DNA from: Cellulomonas cellasea
Lineage (GTDB): Bacteria > Actinomycetota > Actinomycetes > Actinomycetales > Cellulomonadaceae
Length of the DNA stretch: 64,000 nt
NCBI RefSeq assembly: GCF_030372105.1
Contig: NZ_JAUDBQ010000016.1
Coordinates: 1 to 64,000 of the forward strand
Direction of reading: 5' to 3'
Below the pieces are notes generated by a model that did no database searches, was not told the origin of the DNA, and saw nothing but the letters and a program-made list of their open reading frames with translations. Of the stretch, positions 5,815 through 20,719 are shown in pieces (position 1 is the stretch's first letter; each line of letters begins with the position of its first letter). The position numbers and the translations under genes were made by a program.

Positions 5815-7557
5815 GTGCTCGAGGAGATCCGGATCCAGGACCTGGGCGTGATCGGCCGGGCGCACGTCCCACTGCGGCCGGGCCTCACCGTGCTCACGGG
5901 CGAGACGGGCGCCGGCAAGACGATGGTGCTCACCGGGCTCAACCTGCTGCTGGGTGGCAAGGCCGACCCCGCGACAGTGCGCATCGGCGGATCCTCGGCG
6001 GCCGTGGAGGGCCGGGTGCTGCTGCCAGCGGGCTCGCCGGTGCTGGCCCGCGCGCTCGAAGCCGGTGGAGAGTTGGACGACGACGGCTCGCTGGTGCTCG
6101 TGCGGACGGTCGGCGCGTCCACGCCCGACTCGCCTGGACGGTCCCGGGCGTTCCTGGGCGGACGCTCGGTGCCGCAGGCAGTGCTGGCGGAGATCGCCGA
6201 CGAGCTCGTGACGGTGCACGGCCAGGCGGACCAGGCCCGGCTCCGCTCGCCCGCGCGCCAGCGCCAAGCCCTGGACGCGTACGCCGGACCGGAGCACCAG
6301 GACCTGCTCACCGCCTACCGCGAGAGTTGGGCCCAACGCCAAGCCGTCGTCGCCGAGCTGCGCGAGCTGACCGAGCGCAAGCACGACCGCGCCCGTGAGG
6401 CCGAGCTGCTGCGACTGGGCCTCGGCGAGGTGGAGCGCGTCTCTCCGCAGCCCGGCGAGGATGTCGCGCTGACGGCGGAGATCGAGCGGCTCGCGCACGC
6501 CGAGGACCTGCGGTCCGCGGCGAGCGGGGCCCATGCGGTGCTGGTCGGTGACGACGGCGTCGCGCTGGGCGAGGAGCAGGCCGTGGTGACGTTGATCGAG
6601 CATGCGCGCCGGTCGCTCGAGCAGGCCGGGGAGCACGACGCGACGCTGGCGGCCCTCGCGACCCGCGTGGCCGAGGCCGGGTTCCTCCTGACCGACGCGG
6701 CAGCCGAGCTCGCCTCCTACCTCGACGGCCTGCAGGCCGATCCAGCACGGCTCGACCACGCCCAGCGCCGTCGGTCCGAGCTGGCGTCGCTGACCCGCAG
6801 CTACGGCGCCGACATCGCCGAGGTGCTCGACTGGGCGGACACCGCCAGCCGTCGCCTGCTCGACCTGGACGGCGGGGATGAGCACCTGATCGCCCTCACG
6901 GAGCGCCAGGCCGAGCTGACCGCGACGCTGGAGTCCCTCGGGGAGTCCATCAGCGCCGGGCGGCGGCGGGCTGCCGCGTCCCTCGCGGAGGCCGTCACCG
7001 CCGAGCTGGCGGGACTGGCCATGAGCGGCGCCCGGCTCCACGTCCAGGTCGAGCCGGCCGACGAGCCCGGACCGCACGGCGTCGACGTCGTCGAGATGCT
7101 CCTCGTCCCGCACGCCGGCGCTCCGGCCCGGCCGCTCGGCAAGGGGGCATCGGGCGGCGAGCTGTCGCGCGTGATGCTCGCGATCGAGGTGGCGCTGGCC
7201 ACATCGCCCGGATCCGGCGCGCACCGGCCCGCCACGTTCGTCTTCGACGAGGTCGACGCCGGAGTCGGGGGCAAGGCCGCAGTCGAGGTGGGCCGGCGCC
7301 TCGCCGCCCTCGCCCGCGGAGGGCAGGTGCTCGTGGTGACCCACCTCGCACAGGTGGCGGCGTTCGCCGACCAGCACCTCGTGGTGACGAAGTCCACAGG
7401 CGACGGGGTCGACGTGGTGACGGAGTCCGACGTGCGGAACGTCACCGACGAGGAGCGCGTGCGCGAGCTCGCGCGGATGCTCTCCGGCCAGGAGGACTCG
7501 GACGCCGCACGGACCCACGCAGCCGAGCTTCTCAGCCTCTCCGGCATGGGACGATGA
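5815..7557 (+). CDS. recN: DNA repair protein RecN
   Basis: A 580-residue SMC-like ATPase for double-strand break repair. The N-terminal Walker A is G-E-T-G-A-G-K-T at 29-36. A Glu/Arg/Ala-rich coiled-coil middle follows (about 155-350). The C-terminal half carries the ABC signature (G-A-S-G-G-E-L-S-R) and Walker B in V-F-D-E-V-D-A-G-V-G-G. The protein forms a head-tail rod that holds broken ends and acts with RecA. The GTG start is set by the close nadK stop. No SOS box was seen directly upstream, which fits its place inside an operon. Confidence 0.95.
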   Translation: MLEEIRIQDLGVIGRAHVPLRPGLTVLTGETGAGKTMVLTGLNLLLGGKADPATVRIGGSSAAVEGRVLLPAGSPVLARALEAGGELDDDGSLVLVRTVGASTPDSPGRSRAFLGGRSVPQAVLAEIADELVTVHGQADQARLRSPARQRQALDAYAGPEHQDLLTAYRESWAQRQAVVAELRELTERKHDRAREAELLRLGLGEVERVSPQPGEDVALTAEIERLAHAEDLRSAASGAHAVLVGDDGVALGEEQAVVTLIEHARRSLEQAGEHDATLAALATRVAEAGFLLTDAAAELASYLDGLQADPARLDHAQRRRSELASLTRSYGADIAEVLDWADTASRRLLDLDGGDEHLIALTERQAELTATLESLGESISAGRRRAAASLAEAVTAELAGLAMSGARLHVQVEPADEPGPHGVDVVEMLLVPHAGAPARPLGKGASGGELSRVMLAIEVALATSPGSGAHRPATFVFDEVDAGVGGKAAVEVGRRLAALARGGQVLVVTHLAQVAAFADQHLVVTKSTGDGVDVVTESDVRNVTDEERVRELARMLSGQEDSDAARTHAAELLSLSGMGR

Positions 7558-7563
7558 GCCCCG

Positions 7564-8751
7564 ATGAGAGTCTCGCTGCGCAAGCGCGCCCCCCTGCCCG
7601 ACGAGCCCGGAATCGTCGGGCCCGCCCGTGTCGACCCTCGGACGAAGGCGCTGACCAAGCGGCTCCGCCCGGGTGACGTCGCGGTCATCGACCACCTGGA
7701 CATCGACCGGGTCTCGGCCGAGGCGCTCGTCGCCTGCCAGCCGGCCGCCGTCCTCAACGCGTCGCTGTCCACGTCGGGCAGGTACCCGAACCTGGGCCCG
7801 GAGATCCTGGTCCAGGCCGGCATCCCGCTGATCGACGACCTCGGCCCAGACGTCATGACCATCCCCGACGGCCATGTGCTGCGCGTGGTCGACGGCGCGG
7901 TGCACGACGGCGCGACACTGGTGGCCGAGGGCGTCGTGCAGACGGCCGAGACGGTCGAGGCCGCGATGGCCGAGGCGCGCGCCGGACTGTCGGTGCAGCT
8001 CGAGTCGTTCGCGGCCAACACGATGGACTACCTGCGCCGCGAGCGGGACCTGCTGCTCGACGGCGTCGGCGTGCCCGACGTGTCGACGGTGATCGACGGC
8101 CGACAGGTGCTCATCGTCGTGCGCGGCTACCACTACAAGGAGGACCTGGTCACGCTGCGGCCCTACATCCGCGAGTACCGCCCGGTGCTCATCGGGGTGG
8201 ACGGCGGCGCGGACGCGATCCTCGAGGCGGGGTGGACGCCCGACCTCATCGTCGGCGACATGGACTCCGTCTCCGACCGGGCGCTGCGCTGCGGCGCGGA
8301 GGTCGTGGTGCACGCCTACCGCGACGGCCGGGCCCCGGGCCTGGCCCGAGTCGAGCAGCTCGGCGTCCCGCACGTCGTGTTCCCGGCGACGGGCACCAGC
8401 GAGGACGTCGCGATGCTCCTCGCCGACGACAAGGGCGCGGAGCTGATCGTCGCGGTCGGCACCCATGCCACGCTCGTGGAGTTCCTCGACAAGGGGCGCT
8501 CGGGCATGGCCTCGACGTTCCTCACCCGCCTGCGGGTCGGCAGCAAGCTGGTCGACGCCAAGGGCGTCTCGCGGCTGTACCGTCAGCGCATCTCCAACGT
8601 GCAGCTCCTGCTGCTCGTCCTGGCCGGGCTGCTCGCGCTCGGCGTCGCGCTCGCCTCCACGGAGGCGGGGCAGACGCTGCTGGGCCTCACCGGCGCCCGG
8701 TTCGACGATTTCTTCTCGTGGTTCCGCTCGATCTTCAGCTCGACGTCATGA
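7564..8751 (+). CDS. steA: SteA-like cytokinetic protein (thiamine pyrophosphokinase-like fold with C-terminal membrane anchor)
   Basis: A 395-residue protein. The middle carries a thiamine-pyrophosphokinase-like signature (G-V-D-G-G-A-D-A-I-L-E-A-G, P-D-L-I-V-G-D-M-D-S), and a hydrophobic helix at about 345-365 (Q-L-L-L-L-V-L-A-G-L-L-A-L-G) anchors a short Phe-rich tail. This layout matches SteA, which with SteB acts in septal wall cleavage at division in corynebacteria. The gene directly downstream encodes the SteB partner, which strengthens the call. The ATG lies 6 nt after the recN stop. Pyrophosphokinase activity itself is doubtful. Confidence 0.85.
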   Translation: MRVSLRKRAPLPDEPGIVGPARVDPRTKALTKRLRPGDVAVIDHLDIDRVSAEALVACQPAAVLNASLSTSGRYPNLGPEILVQAGIPLIDDLGPDVMTIPDGHVLRVVDGAVHDGATLVAEGVVQTAETVEAAMAEARAGLSVQLESFAANTMDYLRRERDLLLDGVGVPDVSTVIDGRQVLIVVRGYHYKEDLVTLRPYIREYRPVLIGVDGGADAILEAGWTPDLIVGDMDSVSDRALRCGAEVVVHAYRDGRAPGLARVEQLGVPHVVFPATGTSEDVAMLLADDKGAELIVAVGTHATLVEFLDKGRSGMASTFLTRLRVGSKLVDAKGVSRLYRQRISNVQLLLLVLAGLLALGVALASTEAGQTLLGLTGARFDDFFSWFRSIFSSTS

Positions 8752-8803: not shown

Positions 8804-9835
8804 GTGATCGACTTCCGTTACCACATCGTCTCGCTCATCTCGGTGTTCCTGGCGCTCGCCGTCGGGATCGCGCTCGGCGCCGGGCCGCTCAAGGAGACCA
8901 TCGGCGACACCCTCACCGGTCAGGTCCAGGCGCTCCGCGCGGAGAAGGAGACCCTGCGCGCCGAGGCCGACGTGGCCAATGCCGACTTGCAGAACTCCAC
9001 GACGTACATCGAGGCCGCGGCGCCCCAGCTCCTGTCCGGGGCCCTGGCCGAGCGCCGGGTCGCGGTCATCGCCTTGGGCGAGGTCACCGAGGACGAGGTC
9101 GACGGCCTCGAGGCCCAGCTGACCGCGGCCGGCGCCGAGATCAGCGGCGTGGTCACCCTCACCGAGACGTGGACCGACCCCGGGATGCGCAGCTTCCGGC
9201 AGGCGCTGGTCGGGACGCTGGTGGAGTACCTCGACCCGGTGCCCGCTGACGACGCCGGCACCGACGCCGAGCTGGCCACCGCGCTCGTCCAGGCGCTCAC
9301 CGGCGCCAACCCGCAGGCCCCGAACGAGTTCTCGGAGCCCGCCTCCGTGATCCTCGAGCTGCTGAGCGTGGACGAGAAGCCGCTGCTCACCGGCGCCGAC
9401 TCCGTCACCGCCCCGGCTGACGCCATCGTCGTCCTCACGCCGCAGGGCACGGACGACGAGGACGCCGTCGACGACGCGGAAGCCTCCGCGGTGGCGTCGG
9501 CGCAGCTCGCCGTGCTCACTGCCGCGCAGGACGGATCCGAGGGAGCGGTCCTGGCCGACGCCGGGACGTCCACGACGAGCCTGACGAGCCTGGTGCTCGC
9601 CGACGACACGCTCGCGGAGAAGATCACGACAGTCTCGGGCGTGGACGAGGTTCCCGGGCAGGTCTCGGTGCCGCTCGCGCTCAACGCGCGGATCGGCGGT
9701 GTGAACGGCCATTACGGGTTCGCCGAGGGCGAGACCACCGTGCCGACGAAGGTCACGCTCGCCCCGGTGGACCGCACGCCCGTGCCTGAGCCGCAGCCGG
9801 ACGACCTCACTGCGCCCGACGGCGCGGCCGGATGA
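8804..9835 (+). CDS. steB: SteB-like envelope protein (copper transporter/MctB family)
   Basis: A 343-residue protein with one N-terminal membrane helix (about residues 5-25, I-V-S-L-I-S-V-F-L-A-L-A-V-G-I-A-L-G) followed by a coiled coil (residues 35-65, Glu/Ala/Leu-rich) and a large, probably extracytoplasmic, acidic domain. The start I-D-F-R-Y-H-I-V-S-L is the hallmark of the family often annotated as copper transporter or MctB; corynebacterial members with SteA are named SteB. The GTG start lies 52 nt after steA. Its stop overlaps the next ATG by 4 nt. A transport role is unlikely for a single-pass protein. Confidence 0.85.
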   Translation: MIDFRYHIVSLISVFLALAVGIALGAGPLKETIGDTLTGQVQALRAEKETLRAEADVANADLQNSTTYIEAAAPQLLSGALAERRVAVIALGEVTEDEVDGLEAQLTAAGAEISGVVTLTETWTDPGMRSFRQALVGTLVEYLDPVPADDAGTDAELATALVQALTGANPQAPNEFSEPASVILELLSVDEKPLLTGADSVTAPADAIVVLTPQGTDDEDAVDDAEASAVASAQLAVLTAAQDGSEGAVLADAGTSTTSLTSLVLADDTLAEKITTVSGVDEVPGQVSVPLALNARIGGVNGHYGFAEGETTVPTKVTLAPVDRTPVPEPQPDDLTAPDGAAG

Positions 9836-10728
9836 GCGTGGGGATGGGGCAACGGCTCGCCGCGGCGCTGACCGCCTCGGGCGCGACCCTCGCGGTGCGC
9901 GGGGCCCTCGACGAGGACCCGCCCGGCGGGTCGCGCCGCTGGACTCGGATGAACCACCGCGGCGAGCCCGTCAGCCTGCTGGCCGGCCCCGCCGCCGCCG
10001 CCGGGCTGCTCGCGGGCGGTGTGGTCGGGGCCTCGTCGACCCGTGGCGCAGTCGCTTCGGGGATCGCGACGGCGGCCGGCGCCGCATTCGGGTTGGTCGA
10101 CGACCTCGCGGAGGACCAGGACCGGCGCGCGAAGGGCTTGCGCGGACACCTGGGGGCGCTGCGCTCCGGCCACCTCACCACCGGCGCGCTCAAGGTGCTG
10201 GGCATCGGGGCGGGCGCTGTGGTGGCCGCCGCGGTGGCGACCCCGCTGCGGGGGGCTGACGGCGCGCGACGCCCAGCCATCGGGTGGGCCGCCGACGTGG
10301 CGGCCTCCGGCGCCCTGATCGCCGCGACGGCGAACCTGGTCAACTTGCTGGACCTGCGCCCGGGCCGCGCCCTCAAAGCGGTCGCCCTCGCGGCCGCGCC
10401 CATGGCCGTCGCCGGGGGAGCGGGCGCCGGCGCCGCGGCAGCCGTCGTCGGGGTCGCCTCCGCCGGGCTCGAGGCGGACCTCGCCGAGCGCGACATGCTC
10501 GGAGACGGCGGAGCGAACGCGCTCGGCGCGATGCTCGGGGCCGCTGTGGTGCTCGACGCACCCCGAAAGGCGCGCTTGGCGTTGCTCGCCGGCGCCGTCG
10601 CCCTGACGGTGGCGAGCGAGCGGGTCAGCTTCACGCAGGTCATCGCGCGCACTCCCGTGCTCCGCGAGCTCGACGCCTGGGGCAGGCGCCCCGCGGCGCC
10701 TGCCGGAGACGAGAGCCCCCGCGCGTGA
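9832..10728 (+). CDS. MraY/WecA-like polyprenyl-phosphate glycosyl-1-phosphate transferase homologue
   Basis: A 298-residue multi-pass membrane protein. Three segments recall the GT4/MraY superfamily: F-G-L-V-D-D-L near residue 87 (the Mg-binding D-D pair), N-L-V-N-L-L-D-L-R-P-G-R-A-L-K near 167, and D-M-L-G-D-G-G-A-N-A-L-G near 220. Classical enzymes move a sugar phosphate from UDP-sugar to undecaprenyl phosphate. Membrane helices are Ala/Gly-rich and the protein is shorter than MraY (about 330-360), so it is a divergent relative and its substrate is unknown. It is coupled by 4-nt overlaps to steB upstream and the MurJ-like gene downstream, suggesting a lipid-linked envelope step. Confidence 0.75.
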   Translation: MSVGMGQRLAAALTASGATLAVRGALDEDPPGGSRRWTRMNHRGEPVSLLAGPAAAAGLLAGGVVGASSTRGAVASGIATAAGAAFGLVDDLAEDQDRRAKGLRGHLGALRSGHLTTGALKVLGIGAGAVVAAAVATPLRGADGARRPAIGWAADVAASGALIAATANLVNLLDLRPGRALKAVALAAAPMAVAGGAGAGAAAAVVGVASAGLEADLAERDMLGDGGANALGAMLGAAVVLDAPRKARLALLAGAVALTVASERVSFTQVIARTPVLRELDAWGRRPAAPAGDESPRA

Positions 10729-12383
10729 GCGCGTCGACGAGGCGGGCCCTGGGCGGCCTCGCCAGCGCGGCGGCGATGATCGCCGCGATCACCGTGCTCA
10801 GCCGGCTCCTCGGCTTCGGGCGGTGGTTCGTGCAGGCCGGCGCCGTGGGCTCCGGCCTGATCGGCGGGGCGTACAACACCGCGAACACGCTGCCGAACGT
10901 GCTGTTCGAGGTCGCCGCGGGCGGCGCCCTCGCGGGCGCGCTGATCCCCGTGATCACCGGGCCCCTGCGGCGCGGCGACCGGGCCGAGGTCAACCGCATC
11001 TCCTCCGCCCTGTTGGGCTGGACGCTGCTGGTGCTCGTGCCGCTGGCGATCCTGCTCGCCCTCGCCGCCGATCCGCTCGCGCGGCTGTTCGCGGGGATCA
11101 GCGAGGGCCCCGTCGAGCCCGAGCTGATCCGCTACTTCATCCTGGTCTTCGCGGTGCAGATCCCGCTCTACGGCCTCGGCGTCGTGTTGTCCGGCCTGCT
11201 GCAGGCGCAGCGCCGGTTCTTCTGGCCGGCCCTCGCCCCGGCGCTGTCCACGGCCGTGGTGATCGTCGCGTACGCCGTCTACGGGCAGCTCGCGGACCAG
11301 CAGCGCAACGACGCGTCGGCGCTGCCGCCTGGCGCCTTGGACTGGCTGGCATGGGGCACCACGGCGGGGGTCGCGGCGATGAGCCTGCCGCTGCTCATCC
11401 CGGTGCTGCGCTCGGGCGTGCGCTTCCGGCCCACGTTGAGCTTCCCGCCCGGAGTGGCCGCGAGGGTGCGCAGCCTCGCGTTCGCGGGGATCGGCGCCCT
11501 GGTCGCCCAGCAGGCCTCCGTCGTGGTGATGCTGCTGCTGGCCGGCGGGCGGGCCTGGACCGTCTTCCTGTACGCCCAGGCCGTCTACCTGCTCCCGTAC
11601 GCCGTGCTGGCGGTCCCGCTGGCGACGAGCACGTTCCCGCGGCTCGCCGACCGTGCCGCCCGGCCGGCCCGCGAGGGATTCGCCGAGATGGCGGCGTTGA
11701 CCACCCGCGCCGTGGTCGTCGCGGCGGGTGTCGGGGTGGCCGCGCTGATCGCCGCCGCCCCGGCCGTCGCCGAGCTGTTCATCTCGATCGCGCAGCCCGA
11801 GGAGTCCGGCTTGGTGCTGGCGATGGGACCCGCGCTGACTTGGATGGCGCCGGGCCTGCTGGGCTTCGCGCTGCTGTTCCACGTCTCGCGGGCCCTGTAC
11901 GCCTTGGAGCGCGGGCGGGCCGCGGTCGTCGCCGCGGCCTGGGGCTGGTCCGCCGTCGCCGTCTCCGCCGGGCTCCTCGCCTGGCTCTGGGTCCCCACGG
12001 GCGACGACGCCCGCATGCTCACCGCCCTCGGGGTGGCGAACACGATCGGCATGACGGTGGCCGGCGTGGCGCTGCTGGCGGCGCTGCGGCGGGCCGGCGG
12101 CACAGGTGTGCTGCATGGCTTCCCACGCACGCTGGCGGTCCTCGCGGCCGGGGTGCTCGTCGGCGCCGTGGCGGGCCGGTGGACGACAGTCGAGGCGCTC
12201 GCGATCTTCGGCCACGGCTGGGCGCCAGCCGTGGGCGCCGGGGCCGGGGGCGGCGCGCTCGCGGTGCTGGTGGTCGTCGCCGCTGTGGTGGCCTTCGACC
12301 GGGGGACGCTGCGCGGCGTCCTGGGCCTGGACCGCGGAGCGCGGCCGCTGGCGCCGCGAGCCGACGAGGAGGAGACGCTGTGA
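10725..12383 (+). CDS. murJ: MurJ/MviN-like lipid II flippase
   Basis: A 552-residue integral membrane protein of the MOP/MurJ superfamily with about 13-14 hydrophobic helices. The N-terminal V-L-S-R-L-L-G-F-G-R and the A-N-T-L-P-N-V-L-F-E-V-A-A-G-G-A-L segment (about 45-60) match the conserved MurJ start. The family flips lipid-linked wall precursors across the membrane. Actinobacteria usually have another MurJ near the origin, so this copy may serve a second lipid-linked substrate; this is inference. The GTG start overlaps the MraY-like gene stop by 4 nt, and its own stop overlaps the glycosyltransferase start by 4 nt. Confidence 0.85.
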   Translation: MSASTRRALGGLASAAAMIAAITVLSRLLGFGRWFVQAGAVGSGLIGGAYNTANTLPNVLFEVAAGGALAGALIPVITGPLRRGDRAEVNRISSALLGWTLLVLVPLAILLALAADPLARLFAGISEGPVEPELIRYFILVFAVQIPLYGLGVVLSGLLQAQRRFFWPALAPALSTAVVIVAYAVYGQLADQQRNDASALPPGALDWLAWGTTAGVAAMSLPLLIPVLRSGVRFRPTLSFPPGVAARVRSLAFAGIGALVAQQASVVVMLLLAGGRAWTVFLYAQAVYLLPYAVLAVPLATSTFPRLADRAARPAREGFAEMAALTTRAVVVAAGVGVAALIAAAPAVAELFISIAQPEESGLVLAMGPALTWMAPGLLGFALLFHVSRALYALERGRAAVVAAAWGWSAVAVSAGLLAWLWVPTGDDARMLTALGVANTIGMTVAGVALLAALRRAGGTGVLHGFPRTLAVLAAGVLVGAVAGRWTTVEALAIFGHGWAPAVGAGAGGGALAVLVVVAAVVAFDRGTLRGVLGLDRGARPLAPRADEEETL

Positions 12384-13510
12384 GGGTCTTGCAGGTGCTG
12401 GGATCGAGCGCGGGCGGGGTGGCGCGCCACGTCGCGCAGGTGACGAGCGCACTGGGCTCACTGGGCGAGCCGGGCGAGCCGGGCGAGGCCGCGGACACGG
12501 TGCACGTCGCGGGTCCGGCCGAGCTCGCTGCCGTCGTGGCGCCGTCCGATGGCGCGGCCGTCTTCCACACGACGCCGATCGCCGACCGCCCGCGACTTTC
12601 CGACATCCAGGCGGTGCTCAGGCTGCGCGCGTTGTCCGCCGGCGCGGACGTGGTGCACGCCCATGGGCTGCGCGCGGGCGCGCTCGCGGTGCTAGCCGTC
12701 CGAACCCTCCCATCGCGAGCGCGTCCCCGCATGGTCGTCACCCTGCACAACCTGCCCGTCGGCGGGCGCGCGATCCGCACGGTCTCCGCGGTGCTCGAGC
12801 GGATCGTGGCGCGGGGCGCCGATGTGGTGCTGGGGGTGTCGGGCGACCTGGTCGTCCTGGCCAAGGCCCGCGGTGCGCGGCAGGCGAGTCGGGCGCTGGT
12901 CCCGGCCCCGCCATTGCCCCAACCGTCCCGGGACCGCGCCGCCGTGCGCGGCGAGCTCGGCCTGGCGGAGCACGGCACGCTCGTCGTGAGCGTCGCGCGC
13001 CTGGCGCCGCAGAAGGGCCTCGGGCTGCTCGCGGACGCCGCGGCGCTGCTCCACGGCAGGTCCGGGCATGGCGTGCTCTGGGCCCTCGCCGGGGATGGCC
13101 CGTTGCGGGGCGAGCTGCAGGCGCGCATCGACGCCGAAGGGCTTCCTGTGCGGCTCCTCGGGCGCCGCGAGGACGTGGCCGACCTGATGGCGGCCGCCGA
13201 CGTGGTGGCCAGCACCGCTGTGTGGGAGGGGCAGCCCATCGCCGTGCAGGAGGCGCTCCAGCTCGGCTGCCCGCTGGTGGCCACCGACGCCGGGGGCACT
13301 CGGGAGGTCACCGGGGACGCCGCCGTGCTGGTCCCGGTGGGCGATGCGGATGCGTTCGCTCGGGCACTGTCAGAGGTCCTCGCCGACCCGTCGCGCCGGG
13401 AGGCGCTCGCCGCGTCCTCGCGGGCGCAGGCGGCGACCCTGCCCCGCGTCGCCGACGTGGTGGCGCAGCTCCGAGCGGTCTACAGCGGCCGGGCGGCGTC
13501 GGGCGAGTGA
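12380..13510 (+). CDS. GT-B fold glycosyltransferase, family 4
   Basis: A 376-residue cytoplasmic or membrane-peripheral glycosyltransferase. The N-terminal domain opens [15 protein letters not shown] and has D-V-V-H-A-H-G-L-R near 95. The C-terminal nucleotide-sugar domain has [12 protein letters not shown] near 205, A-G-D-G-P-L-R near 240 and the E-x7-E-like region ([11 protein letters not shown]) near 295. Donor and acceptor are unknown. Coupling to the MraY-like and MurJ-like genes suggests it extends the same lipid-linked intermediate. GTG start overlaps the murJ stop. Confidence 0.85.
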
Positions 13511-13613: not shown

Positions 13614-15299
<1,686 letters not shown>

Positions 15300-16057: not shown

Positions 16058-17035
16058 TCAGGCGACGGCGGGGGAGCCGACCCGACCAGCGTCGTCTCCC
16101 GCCGTGTCCGGGAGCGTGGCCTGCGCGCGGGTCCGGAGGCTCACCAGGAACCAGGTGAGGGCGGCGGCGAGCAGCCCGGCGCCCAGCATGTGCACGCCGA
16201 CGAGCAGTGCCGGCAGCCCGGTGAAGTACTGCACGTACCCGACGAGCCCCTGGGCCAGCGTGACCGCCACCAGGAGGATCCCGGAGCGGCGGACCGCGGC
16301 GGGGGCGCCCGTGCGCCACAGCGCGACGAGCATCACGGCGAGCACACCGCAGAAGACCCACACCGCGAGGGCGTGGAGCCGTGACATGAGCGCCGGGTCG
16401 ACGGCGAACCGGTAGGCGACGTCGTCATCCCCGCCGTGCGGGCCCGCGCCGGTGACGATCACGCCGAGGCTCAGCAGCACCACCGCGACACCGGCGAGCA
16501 GCCACCCGGCGCGCACCATCGCGGGGCCCACCACGGTGTGGGCGGGGCCGTCGCCCTCGCGCTCACGGCGCAGCAGCAGCGTCGAGACGCTGATCAGCGC
16601 CAGGGAGATGAGCATGTGCACGGCGACCACCGCGGGGTGCAGGTCCAGGAGCACCGTCACACCGCCCACCAGCGCCTGCAGTGCGACCCCGATCAGCGGG
16701 GCGAGCCCGAGCTTGCGGTAGGCATCGCCACGGCTGCGGTTCGTCCACACCAGGTAGGCCACCGCGAGGGCGATCACGCCGAGCACGCCGGTGAGCGTGC
16801 GGTTGCCGAACTCGATGAACGAGTGGCCCGTCGCGGCCGCGTGCCGCACGGGGGTGAACGCGCCCGGCTCGCACATCGGCCACGTGGAGCAGCCGAGCCC
16901 GGAGGCGGTCAGCCGCACGGCGCCGCCGGTGACGACGATGCCGATCTGCGCGACGAGGTTCGCGACGATCGCGCGGTGGCGCCACACGTCACGCCGTGCG
17001 GCGGGGAGGTCAGGGGCGACGAGGGCTGCGCTCAC
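16058..17035 (-). CDS. ctaA: Heme A synthase (CtaA/COX15)
   Basis: A 325-residue membrane protein with about eight helices, converting heme O to heme A for cytochrome aa3. The N-terminal half has the conserved T-G-G-A-V-R-L-T-A-S-G-L-G-C-S-T-W-P-M-C and the heme-ligand His in T-G-H-S-F-I-E-F-G-N-R. The second half repeats the fold with V-T-G-A-G-P-H-G-G and H-x-L histidines (S-R-L-H-A-L, V-H-M-L-G). A GTG start at 17035 follows a -10 element by 7 nt. It lies beside ABC transporter genes and the suf operon, as in mycobacteria. Confidence 0.93.
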   Translation of the reverse strand: MSAALVAPDLPAARRDVWRHRAIVANLVAQIGIVVTGGAVRLTASGLGCSTWPMCEPGAFTPVRHAAATGHSFIEFGNRTLTGVLGVIALAVAYLVWTNRSRGDAYRKLGLAPLIGVALQALVGGVTVLLDLHPAVVAVHMLISLALISVSTLLLRREREGDGPAHTVVGPAMVRAGWLLAGVAVVLLSLGVIVTGAGPHGGDDDVAYRFAVDPALMSRLHALAVWVFCGVLAVMLVALWRTGAPAAVRRSGILLVAVTLAQGLVGYVQYFTGLPALLVGVHMLGAGLLAAALTWFLVSLRTRAQATLPDTAGDDAGRVGSPAVA

Positions 17036-17042
17036 GCGGACC

Positions 17043-17048
17043 AGCGTA
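17043..17048 (-). promoter_or_regulatory. ctaA -10 element, leaderless type
   Basis: Minus-strand TACGCT ends 7 nt before the ctaA GTG, with no Shine-Dalgarno in between. No clear -35 was found. Confidence 0.5.
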
Positions 17049-17098
17049 CGTGCGGGCGCCTCTGGTTCAGAGCCTGGCCGGTGTGACGTGCGCCGGGC

Positions 17099-17902
17099 TC
17101 AGCGGCTGGTGGAGACGCGGTACTGCGCGTTGGCGAGCGGGACGAAGACCGCGAGGATCACCACGCACCACATCAAGGTGTAGGCGACGGGGTGCTGCAG
17201 CGCCCAGCCGGTGGGCTCCGGCGTGCCGGCGGGGATGTTCCCGAAGAGCTCGCGCGCCGCCTGGGTGACGGCGGACACCGGGTTCCACTCCGCGAAGGCC
17301 TGCAACGGGGCGGGCAGCGTGTCGAGGGGGACGAAGGTGTTCGCGACGAACGTCAGCGGGAAGATGATGATGAACGAGGCGTTGTTCACCACCTCCGGGC
17401 TGGGGACGAGCATGCCGACCCACGCGAAGATCCACGAGACCGCGTACGCGAACACGATGAGCAGCAGGTACCCGGCCACGGCGTCCCAGAACGAGCTGGT
17501 GATCCGCCAGCCGACGACCAGCCCGGTGAGCGACATGACGATGAGCACGAGCACGTTGTTGATCACGTCGGAGAATGTGCGGCCCGTGAGGACCGCAGAC
17601 GGGGACATCGGCAGCGACCGGAAGCGGTCGATGATGCCCTTCTTGACGTCCTCGGCCAGCCCGGCGCCGGTGATCGTCGAGCCGAAGATGACCGTCTGGG
17701 CGAAGATCCCGGCGATGAGGAACTGCCGGTACTCGTCGCCGCTCCCGCCCTCGATCGCCCCGCCGAAGACGTAGGCGAACAGCAGGACGAACATGATGGG
17801 CGACAGCGTGGTGAAGACCAGCAGGTCGGGGACGCGCTTGATCTTGATGATGTTGCGCGTCGCCACGACCGACGCGTCGGCGACGACATGGGGCACCCTC
17901 AT
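17099..17902 (-). CDS. ABC-2 type transporter permease (DrrB-like)
   Basis: A 267-residue permease with six hydrophobic segments. It has the family layout: an N-terminal cytoplasmic part ending R-N-I-I-K-I-K-R-V-P-D, the F-R-S-L-P-M-S-P segment near 95 (DrrB/ABC-2 coupling region), and W-N-P-V-S-A-V-T-Q-A-A-R-E near 220. It forms an exporter with the ATPase whose stop overlaps its ATG by 4 nt. The substrate is unknown; the family exports lipids, antibiotics or polyketides. Confidence 0.88.
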   Translation of the reverse strand: MRVPHVVADASVVATRNIIKIKRVPDLLVFTTLSPIMFVLLFAYVFGGAIEGGSGDEYRQFLIAGIFAQTVIFGSTITGAGLAEDVKKGIIDRFRSLPMSPSAVLTGRTFSDVINNVLVLIVMSLTGLVVGWRITSSFWDAVAGYLLLIVFAYAVSWIFAWVGMLVPSPEVVNNASFIIIFPLTFVANTFVPLDTLPAPLQAFAEWNPVSAVTQAARELFGNIPAGTPEPTGWALQHPVAYTLMWCVVILAVFVPLANAQYRVSTSR

Positions 17903-18873
17903 GACTGCCGTCCTTCCGACTCGTCGTCCTCGTCATGCGTGGTGCGGCCGGTCAGCGAGAGGAACACGTCGTCGAGCGTCGGGCGGCGCAGGCCGATGTC
18001 GTCCAGCGCGATCGACGTCCCGTCCAGGACCCGCAGCGTCTCCGCGAGGGTCGTGGCGCCACCGGCCACCGGCATCAGCAGCGTGCGCCGGCCGACGTCG
18101 AGCGTCGGGGGGCCGAGGCCCAGCGGGGTGAGGAGCCTCTCGGCCTCGGGGAGCTGGCTGCCATCGGACAGCGTGAGCTCGAGCCGCTCCCCGCCGACCT
18201 CGCGCTTCAGGTCGTCGGAGGTGCCCTGCGCGATGATCTTGCCGTGGTCGATCACCACGATCTCGTCGGCGAGCAGGTCTGCCTCCTCCAAGTACTGCGT
18301 GGTGAGCAGCAGCGTCGTGCCCTTGGCGACGAGGGTCTGGATGACGTTCCACATCTCGGTGCGCCCACGCGGGTCGAGCCCGGTGGTGGGCTCGTCCAGG
18401 AAGATCACGGGCGGGTCGGCCACGAGCGCCCCGGCCAGGTCGAGGCGGCGCCGCATCCCGCCGGAGTAGGTGCGTGTGGGCCGGTCGCCCGACTCGGCGA
18501 GCGAGAAGTTCTCCAGCAGCTCGCGGGCGCGCACTCGCGACGCGCGCCGCCCGAGGTGGTAGAGCCGGCCGATCATGACGAGGTTCTCGAAGCCCGTGAG
18601 GTACTCGTCGACGGCGGCGTACTGGCCGGACAGGCCGATGTGGCGGCGCACGCGCGCCGGCTCGGCGAGGACGTCGGCCCCCGCGACGGTGGCGCTCCCG
18701 GCGGTGGGCCGCAGCAACGTGGTGAGGATGCGCACCACTGTCGTCTTCCCGGCGCCGTTCGGGCCGAGCAGCCCGAGCACCGTGCCCGTGGGCACGGTCA
18801 GATCGACGCCGTCGAGGGCGACGACATCCCCGTACTTCTTGACCAGTCCGCGCGCGATGATCGAATCGCCCAT
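17899..18873 (-). CDS. ABC transporter ATP-binding protein (DrrA-like)
   Basis: A 324-residue ATPase. Walker A G-P-N-G-A-G-K-T-T lies near 40, signature Y-S-G-G-M-R-R-R-L-D-L near 138, Walker B V-I-F-L-D-E-P-T-T near 160. The long C-terminal extension with R-R-P-T-L-D-D-V-F-L is typical of DrrA. ATG 18873 is preferred because TAGCAT ends 7 nt upstream; a start at 18903 would add ten residues and overlap that -10. The downstream permease overlaps by 4 nt, so the two form one transporter. Confidence 0.9.
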   Translation of the reverse strand: MGDSIIARGLVKKYGDVVALDGVDLTVPTGTVLGLLGPNGAGKTTVVRILTTLLRPTAGSATVAGADVLAEPARVRRHIGLSGQYAAVDEYLTGFENLVMIGRLYHLGRRASRVRARELLENFSLAESGDRPTRTYSGGMRRRLDLAGALVADPPVIFLDEPTTGLDPRGRTEMWNVIQTLVAKGTTLLLTTQYLEEADLLADEIVVIDHGKIIAQGTSDDLKREVGGERLELTLSDGSQLPEAERLLTPLGLGPPTLDVGRRTLLMPVAGGATTLAETLRVLDGTSIALDDIGLRRPTLDDVFLSLTGRTTHDEDDESEGRQS

Positions 18874-18880
18874 GCGGGCG

Positions 18881-18886
18881 ATGCTA
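18881..18886 (-). promoter_or_regulatory. -10 element of the DrrAB-like operon, leaderless type
   Basis: Minus-strand TAGCAT ends 7 nt before ATG 18873 and there is no Shine-Dalgarno. This spacing decides the start codon. No clear -35. Confidence 0.5.
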
Positions 18887-18986
18887 GGCGCATCGTCCGA
18901 CATGCGCGTTTTGGGAGCGATGTCCAGGGTGTGCGGGGCGTCGCCCGGGGGTCAGGCCGGCTGCGGCGTTGACCCCGATGGAGCGG

Positions 18987-19759
18987 TCAGTGCCAGCGGA
19001 ACAGCCGTGCCGCGCCCCAGCCGAGGGCCCCCGCCCAGGCGACCAGGACGGGGGCCGTCCAGCCGGGCACGCTGCCGGCCAGCAGCGCTTGGCGCAGGCC
19101 CTCTCCGAGGGCGCCCGAGGGCAGGAAGAGCGCGAGGCCGGCCAGCGGCCCGGGCAATTGCTCCGCGGGGACCAGCACGCCGCCGCCGACGGCCAGCAGC
19201 ACGAGCAGCAGGTTCGCCACCGCCAGCACCGCCTCGGAGCGCAGGGTCCCGGCGATGAGCAGCGCGAGGGAGGTGAACGCGGCGGTGCCCAACACGATGG
19301 TGAGCAAGGCGAGGGGGATGCCGGCGGGGTCGGGCCGCCAGCCGAGGGCCACGGCGAGGGCCCCGAGCACCACGATCTGCACGAGCTCGACGGCGAACAC
19401 CGCGAGGATCTTCCCCGCGAGCAGGCCGCCGCGCCCGAGCGGTGTCGTCGCGAGCAGCCGCAGCACGCCGTTGCGGCGGTCGAACGCCGTGGCGATGGCC
19501 TGCGACGTGAAGGACGTGCTCATCACGGCGAGCGCGATCACCCCGGGGGCCACGAAGTCGATCCGTGCGGCGCCGCCGGTCGACAGCTCGACCAGGTCGC
19601 TGCGCGTGAGCCCGATGAGGATGAGTGCGGGCAGCGCGAGGGTCACCATGAGCTGCTCGGCGTTGCGCAGGATCGCCTGCGTCTCGAAGGCCGTCTGGGA
19701 CAGCACGCGGCGTGCGGGGCTCGCGGGCGCGGACGCGCGGCGCACGTCGGTGACGGTAG

Positions 19760-19763
<4 letters not shown>
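18987..19763 (-). CDS. ABC-2 type transporter permease
   Basis: A 258-residue permease with about six helices. After a cytoplasmic N-terminus it has A-F-D-R-R-N-G-V-L-R-L-L-A-T-T-P-L-G-R near 95-112, the coupling region of ABC-2 permeases, and a late L-P-G-P-L-A-G-L-A-L-F-L-P-S-G-A segment. The ATG at 19763 overlaps the stop of the ATPase gene upstream by 4 nt, making a second ATPase/permease exporter. In mycobacteria a like pair sits beside sufR; the substrate is not known. Confidence 0.88.

Positions 19764-20719
<956 letters not shown>

Follow-up and report, generated by a model that had tools for sequence, protein, structure and literature searches.

Separation of daughter cells is governed by SteAB in Corynebacterium and, for SteA at least, also in Mycobacterium (PMC12977500, PMC12338722); PMC6705760 likewise reports on the steAB operon and on what it does in cell separation, and these papers, as well as the two cited further on, are drawn on here through passages of their text. 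The core of SteA is similar to the thiamine pyrophosphokinase nucleotide site, GDP or UDP stabilises CgSteA, the results for MtSteA being inconclusive, and the specific ligand is described as not known, the authors suggesting that a wall-precursor metabolite is sensed (PMC12977500). In mycobacteria the SteA homologue is reported to work by way of MtrB, and the partner encoded in the same operon is dispensable for separation (PMC12338722), so that the output of SteA differs between lineages. Here we analyse a stretch of 64,000 nucleotides from Cellulomonas cellasea (contig NZ_JAUDBQ010000016.1, hereafter the window; genome of 3.81 Mb in 33 contigs, 99.9% complete) in which steA and steB are followed by genes for a predicted transferase-like membrane enzyme, a predicted second MurJ-family flippase and a GT4 glycosyltransferase (Table 1). 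The first two are called mraL and murJ2, working names coined in this analysis. None of the three is mentioned beside steAB in the passages of PMC12977500, PMC6705760 and PMC12338722, and no paper describing the set was found in the literature covered (titles and abstract starts, most subscription journals lying outside this coverage), where the Streptomyces locus numbers SCO1776-1779 gave matches for SCO1776 only.

Our reading, held with moderate confidence, is that these genes belong to an old chromosomal module in which a lipid-linked glycan route is coupled to SteAB. On the plus strand of the window the order is nadK (identified by order and length), recN, steA, steB, mraL, murJ2, gt4, pyrG and nudix. 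A gap of 52 nt separates steA from steB, and the junctions that follow are 4-nt overlaps (ATGA for steB/mraL, GTGA for both mraL/murJ2 and murJ2/gt4); the first-pass annotation, which had described a five-gene run from steA to the GT4 gene with the last four joined in this way, is confirmed. Eighty named loci, the best of 561 confirmed matches in one genome-contig scan, carry steA in 78 cases, steB in 79, murJ2 in 78, pyrG in 68 and gt4 in 37; in L037, L039 and L060 an overlap filter hid mraL, though an mraL match had fetched each locus. The 4-nt overlap recurs at mraL/murJ2 in 67 of 78 testable loci, at steB/mraL in 38 of 79 and at murJ2/gt4 in 20 of 34. Because neighbours and overlaps recur across the named loci, the order steA-steB-mraL-murJ2-gt4 is not due to chance. 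Cellulomonas timonensis is the nearest named relative among the matches listed (92% for mraL).

Compared with SteA-SteB of Corynebacterium and Mycobacterium, the locus has the same two families with the same recN side and the same pyrG side, the difference lying in what separates steB from pyrG. In eight of the nine genomes of family f7, which we take for Mycobacteriales, pyrG follows steB with no match to the mraL, murJ2 or gt4 profiles between them, and the same arrangement is found in 16 genomes beyond this family; G011 and G107, out of all genomes with steB next to pyrG, have a larger gap. In the ninth f7 genome (L123, G031:C99) pyrG comes directly after steA, and steB gave no match.

The first-pass annotation had suggested checking how often the trio accompanies steAB, and the association proved to reach far beyond this genome. 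Searched with the window protein alone, 148 class genomes gave an mraL match in 63 cases, a count from which a single query sequence can miss divergent copies and draft genomes can miss genes. Of the 61 genomes of the window's family, 60 have mraL. The murJ2 profile reached at least 290 bits in 60 class genomes, 59 with mraL and one without, four having mraL only and 84 neither (Fisher 3e-35, ignoring shared ancestry); this threshold was chosen after the scores had been seen, at a gap from 295.1 to 287.2 bits, and below it fall the single MurJ genes of family f21, ordinary MurJ copies and one fragment. SteA was matched in 90 class genomes at E 0.001 (87 above the cut-off), 58 of them with mraL and 32 without, while five had mraL only and 53 neither. 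The GT4 gene is less constant: in the named loci it accompanies murJ2 in 36 cases and stands without it in one, and 42 of 80 have murJ2 without gt4, three of these being among the four gt4-less loci that end before the gt4 site. Within the family, where at most 33 candidates were scored per genome, a GT4 at E 1e-40 occurs in 31 of 61 genomes, always on the contig that carries mraL and at a distance of 2.4-3.1 kb from it. Since GT4 is missing from many loci, the conserved core is mraL plus murJ2 and GT4 is not a fixed part of it; this core may be an old, widely conserved set for building and flipping a sugar-lipid. The three-gene lipid-linked glycan route beside SteAB that had been proposed at first thus keeps its enzyme types, the fold described below, a second MurJ and a tie to steAB beyond this genome, and loses GT4 as a fixed member.

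The structure model of MraL is a confident one (pLDDT 95.2), and its top 18 structural matches are all of the MraY/DPAGT1 type. D90, D91 and D225 align with D113, D114 and D279 of the MraY of the same genome; in MraY a catalytic role is assigned to the aspartates D117/D118/D265 (A. aeolicus numbering; PMC6606608). The model thus predicts an MraY fold with catalytic aspartates in place, which speaks against the lack of an active-site pocket that the first-pass annotation had considered as a refutation. The divergence from both MraY and WecA stated there is equally evident: the window protein has no match to PF00953 or to any other Pfam family at 0.01, its 287-aa core alone gives a single DUF998 match below the cut-off, and PF00953 is matched by eight of 30 orthologues at E 0.01 or better (best 1.5e-4), the orthologues of G010 and G007 scoring 30.1 bits, above the cut-off, and 21.4 bits, below it. 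In contrast to MraY, WecA and DPAGT1 (PF00953), MraL has the uridine-pocket residues swapped for other invariant ones (DLRPGR..K, MLGD), G194, L195, D196 and F262 of MraY (A. aeolicus numbering; PMC6606608) corresponding to L175, R176, P177 and M222, with K70 not aligned. H338 is invariant across a 23-row MraY/WecA set; no histidine is found among the invariant C-terminal columns of MraL, which lacks the histidine-rich loop E and has a DxxGR motif of its own.

Such replacement of the base pocket and loop E by other invariant residues could mean that MraL is no longer an enzyme and serves as a carrier- or nucleotide-binding scaffold aiding SteAB or MurJ2, which would also fit the 43 of 80 named loci without GT4 (four cut by the stretch end) and the presence of the deeper-type GT2 described below in none of the 80. 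We regard this as very unlikely, since every one of the 117 sequences from outside the SteA-less genus treated below has the three catalytic aspartates together with K121, N168, N171 and K182, and a sugar transferase, GT4 or GT2, is repeatedly met as a partner. Alternatively, the same three kinds of protein beside cell-separation genes could be a spare lipid II route, with MraL, GT4 and MurJ2 as a second MraY-MurG-MurJ set for septal peptidoglycan precursor; indeed, the MurJ2 profile matches solved MurJ at E 1e-26 to 1.2e-35, aligned along nearly the whole length. The altered uridine pocket and absent histidine loop, the lack of a MurG-type (GT28) domain among the Pfam families of gt4, and the occurrence elsewhere in the genome of another PF03023 gene and of two PF00953 genes (by eye of WecA/TagO type and an MraY with HHH) make that highly improbable.

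The counts of other murJ and wecA/mraY-type genes that had been suggested at first thus turned up both kinds outside the window. The murJ2 product matches PF03023 at 137.1-137.5 bits (cut-off 27.4) and scores 140.6 bits against the TIGR01695 equivalog, whose cut-off is 235.55; the other PF03023 gene is the stronger match (241.5 vs 137.5 bits), so murJ2 is not the only MurJ of the cell, as the first-pass annotation had allowed it might be. Like the lipid II flippase it belongs to the MurJ family by sequence; unlike it, it is a second copy below the equivalog cut-off, on a branch apart from the other MurJ of the class by the topology of a FastTree phylogeny with midpoint root (26 of 76 class murJ2, 10 murJ from deeper lineages and 21 other MurJ). 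R52 and R270 of E. coli MurJ were considered as a substrate clue and dropped, the R270 comparison having been made by eye; the column of murJ2 E62 holds D or E also in 12 of 21 of the other MurJ of the class, and R is not among the four commonest letters listed. In gt4, R207, K212, E283 and E291, which we take to be the GT4 catalytic set, are present as the R/K pair and an EX7E motif. All 35 named GT4 (window included) and all seven deeper GT4 that were long enough to compare retain R207 and K212, shorter sequences having been dropped beforehand. The nearest solved relatives of gt4 include GT4 enzymes such as BshA and PimA, and it falls below every NCBIfam cut-off among the best 25 of 28 matches. 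A link to MglA as an alternative MurG was rejected because gt4 has neither PF03033 nor PF04101, the domains of this MurG homologue (PMC8092295), among its listed families.

A lineage without SteA offers a further comparison. One genus (f22/g25, probably Streptomyces) includes five genomes, of 6-10 Mb, in which the stretch reads recN-mraL-gt4, with no steA, steB or murJ2, and genome-wide searches of four of them gave no SteA match and no murJ2 at 290 bits; five other genomes of the genus gave no mraL match in the phylum profile search described below. All five MraL carry N168H, K182G or A, and N229H, and their frame ends before the C-terminal motif, D90, D91, D174 and D225 being retained; in the accompanying GT4, R207 is changed to S/A and K212 to R/H. 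That the enzymes are altered where SteA and murJ2 are absent suggests, from sequence comparison, a shared function. Being a single decayed lineage, it cannot tell whether the absence of SteA or that of murJ2 matters. By eye, one gene resembling PucR and another resembling GH15 are seen close by in the three loci inspected, L127, L128 and L199, of the five (L127-L130, L199).

Of 396 phylum genomes searched with a 49-row profile, 148 had an mraL match at E 0.001; 12 of these matches, weaker than 1e-10 and possibly ordinary MraY/WecA or a cut gene, were excluded, leaving 136, and in three weak-match stretches (L196-L198) no steA, steB or pyrG was found. Forty selected stretches, minus those three and one locus of the SteA-less genus, gave 36 deeper loci, all outside the class, with steA in 32, steB in 33, pyrG in 36, a GT2 in 23, murJ in 10 (on the opposite strand in L164, L176 and L189) and GT4 in five (seven by a looser scan). 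The three deeper GT2 scanned all match PF00535, and the one searched has the GT2 enzymes GpgS and dolichol-phosphate mannose synthase as nearest solved relatives. A protein of about 770 aa, alkaline-phosphatase-like by eye, lies near mraL in 11 of the 36 loci (among them L162, L167, L168:4764-6950 and L193); the one scanned had no Pfam match at 0.01. Beyond the phylum, the 'plasmid' record NZ_CP154629.1 of Acetoanaerobium noterae (2.63 Mb, Clostridia) reads argR-recN-steA-steB-gt2-mraL-...-nudix (argR by eye), with SteA 50.8% identical to that of the window over 80%, SteB at 60 bits and mraL at 133 bits (L251:8944-12492). SteAB has been called largely restricted to Actinobacteria (PMC12977500), with which this one record, holding SteA and SteB matches together with GT2 and mraL, stands in contrast. 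Both NZ_CP154629.1 and NZ_LT559118.1 (11.85 Mb) are 'plasmid' records with recN, steA and neighbours, and look chromosome-like.

Several observations weigh against the coupled module. Gene order alone does not prove coupling to SteAB, and the surroundings, nadK-recN ... pyrG-nudix, are stable in general. Nor does SteAB always come with mraL, there being no mraL match in 32 of the 90 SteA-bearing class genomes; in 37 stretches, one per SteA/mraL-discordant class genome, pyrG follows steB with no trio profile match between them in 24 of these 32, the other eight being mostly cut short or missing steB or steA in the stretch. One genome (G099) has a remnant-like mraL match (27 bits) between steB and gt4, without murJ2, and the stretch of named locus L092 holds an intact mraL together with gt4 and lacks murJ2. 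GT4 is dispensable, 30 of 61 family genomes being without a match at E 1e-40. In the deeper loci a GT2 is often found in place of murJ2 and GT4, 26 of 36 have no murJ in the stretch and four have no partner at all; only two of the ten deeper murJ (L162, L189) group with class murJ2, and as the remaining eight branch elsewhere, some closer to other MurJ, deeper murJ need not be murJ2. Furthermore, the decay in the SteA-less genus is one lineage and not five events, its fifth genome (G486) was searched in the stretch only, and steB was searched in the stretches only for all five.

The lipid-linked glycan route could therefore be real and functionally unrelated to SteAB, merely sharing with it a stable stretch of chromosome; nadK, recN, pyrG and nudix keep their order though they are not envelope genes, and many genomes keep SteAB while lacking the trio. 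We consider this possible, if doubtful, as steB and mraL overlap by 4 nt in nearly half of the testable loci, mraL stays at the spot in other classes and in the clostridial record while its partners change, and MraL and GT4 residues change jointly in the one genus without SteA.

If the route is coupled to SteAB, as we favour, MraL would move a sugar-1-phosphate or similar group from a nucleotide donor to polyprenyl phosphate, GT4 where present (GT2 in deeper lineages) would add a further sugar on the cytosolic side, and MurJ2 would flip the lipid-linked product, which would then give rise to an envelope glycan or glycolipid. SteAB, as septal activator of peptidoglycan hydrolases, would be coupled to this pathway, most simply if a UDP- or GDP-type compound that serves these enzymes as donor or arises from them as by-product is read by the nucleotide pocket of SteA. 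It is tempting, though rather unlikely in our estimate, to go further and see in MraL a new transferase branch that uses a non-UDP-HexNAc donor and provides two phyla with an undescribed lipid-linked glycan; SteA would then have the pathway's donor or by-product nucleotide as its ligand, and septal wall cutting would be licensed by glycan synthesis. The occurrence of the module beside steAB across the phylum and in the clostridial record names these enzymes, and nucleotide sugars, as candidate sources of SteA signals. An envelope polymer may have been overlooked, as the best-studied steAB organisms seem, judging from family f7, to be without the genes.

Table 1. Features of the steA-gt4 locus and its neighbours in the window
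Feature	Position	Strand	Remarks
steA	7564-8751	+	NF040608 508.9 bits (cut-off 150), PF12555; cytosolic TPK-like domain and C-terminal membrane domain
steB (MctB family)	8804-9835	+	PF11382 E 1.1e-76, 259 bits (cut-off 25.6)
mraL	9832-10728	+	298 aa; predicted divergent MraY/WecA-fold polyprenyl-phosphate sugar-phosphate transferase-like protein
mraL D90-D91	10099-10104	+	equivalent of MraY DD (D117/D118, A. aeolicus numbering)
mraL N168-K182, loop C	10333-10377	+	NxxNxxD kept; DGLDG replaced by DLRPGR..K
mraL M222-N229, loop D	10495-10518	+	MLGDxGAN; D225 aligned to MraY Mg-binding Asp
mraL E263-R285, C-terminal motif	10618-10686	+	ExxSF..VI...L...DxxGR at the site of MraY/WecA histidine loop E
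murJ2	10725-12383	+	552 aa; predicted second MurJ-family flippase; PF03023 E 8.5e-40
gt4	12380-13510	+	GT4 glycosyltransferase; PF00534 E 8.3e-29, PF13692; R207, K212, E283-x7-E291
recN	5815-7557	+	conserved upstream neighbour
pyrG	13617-15299	+	conserved downstream neighbour; PF06418; start codon approximate

Further downstream, on the opposite strand of the window (16058-20719), the list of open reading frames shows by eye a CtaA-looking membrane protein and two ABC transporter ATPase/permease pairs.
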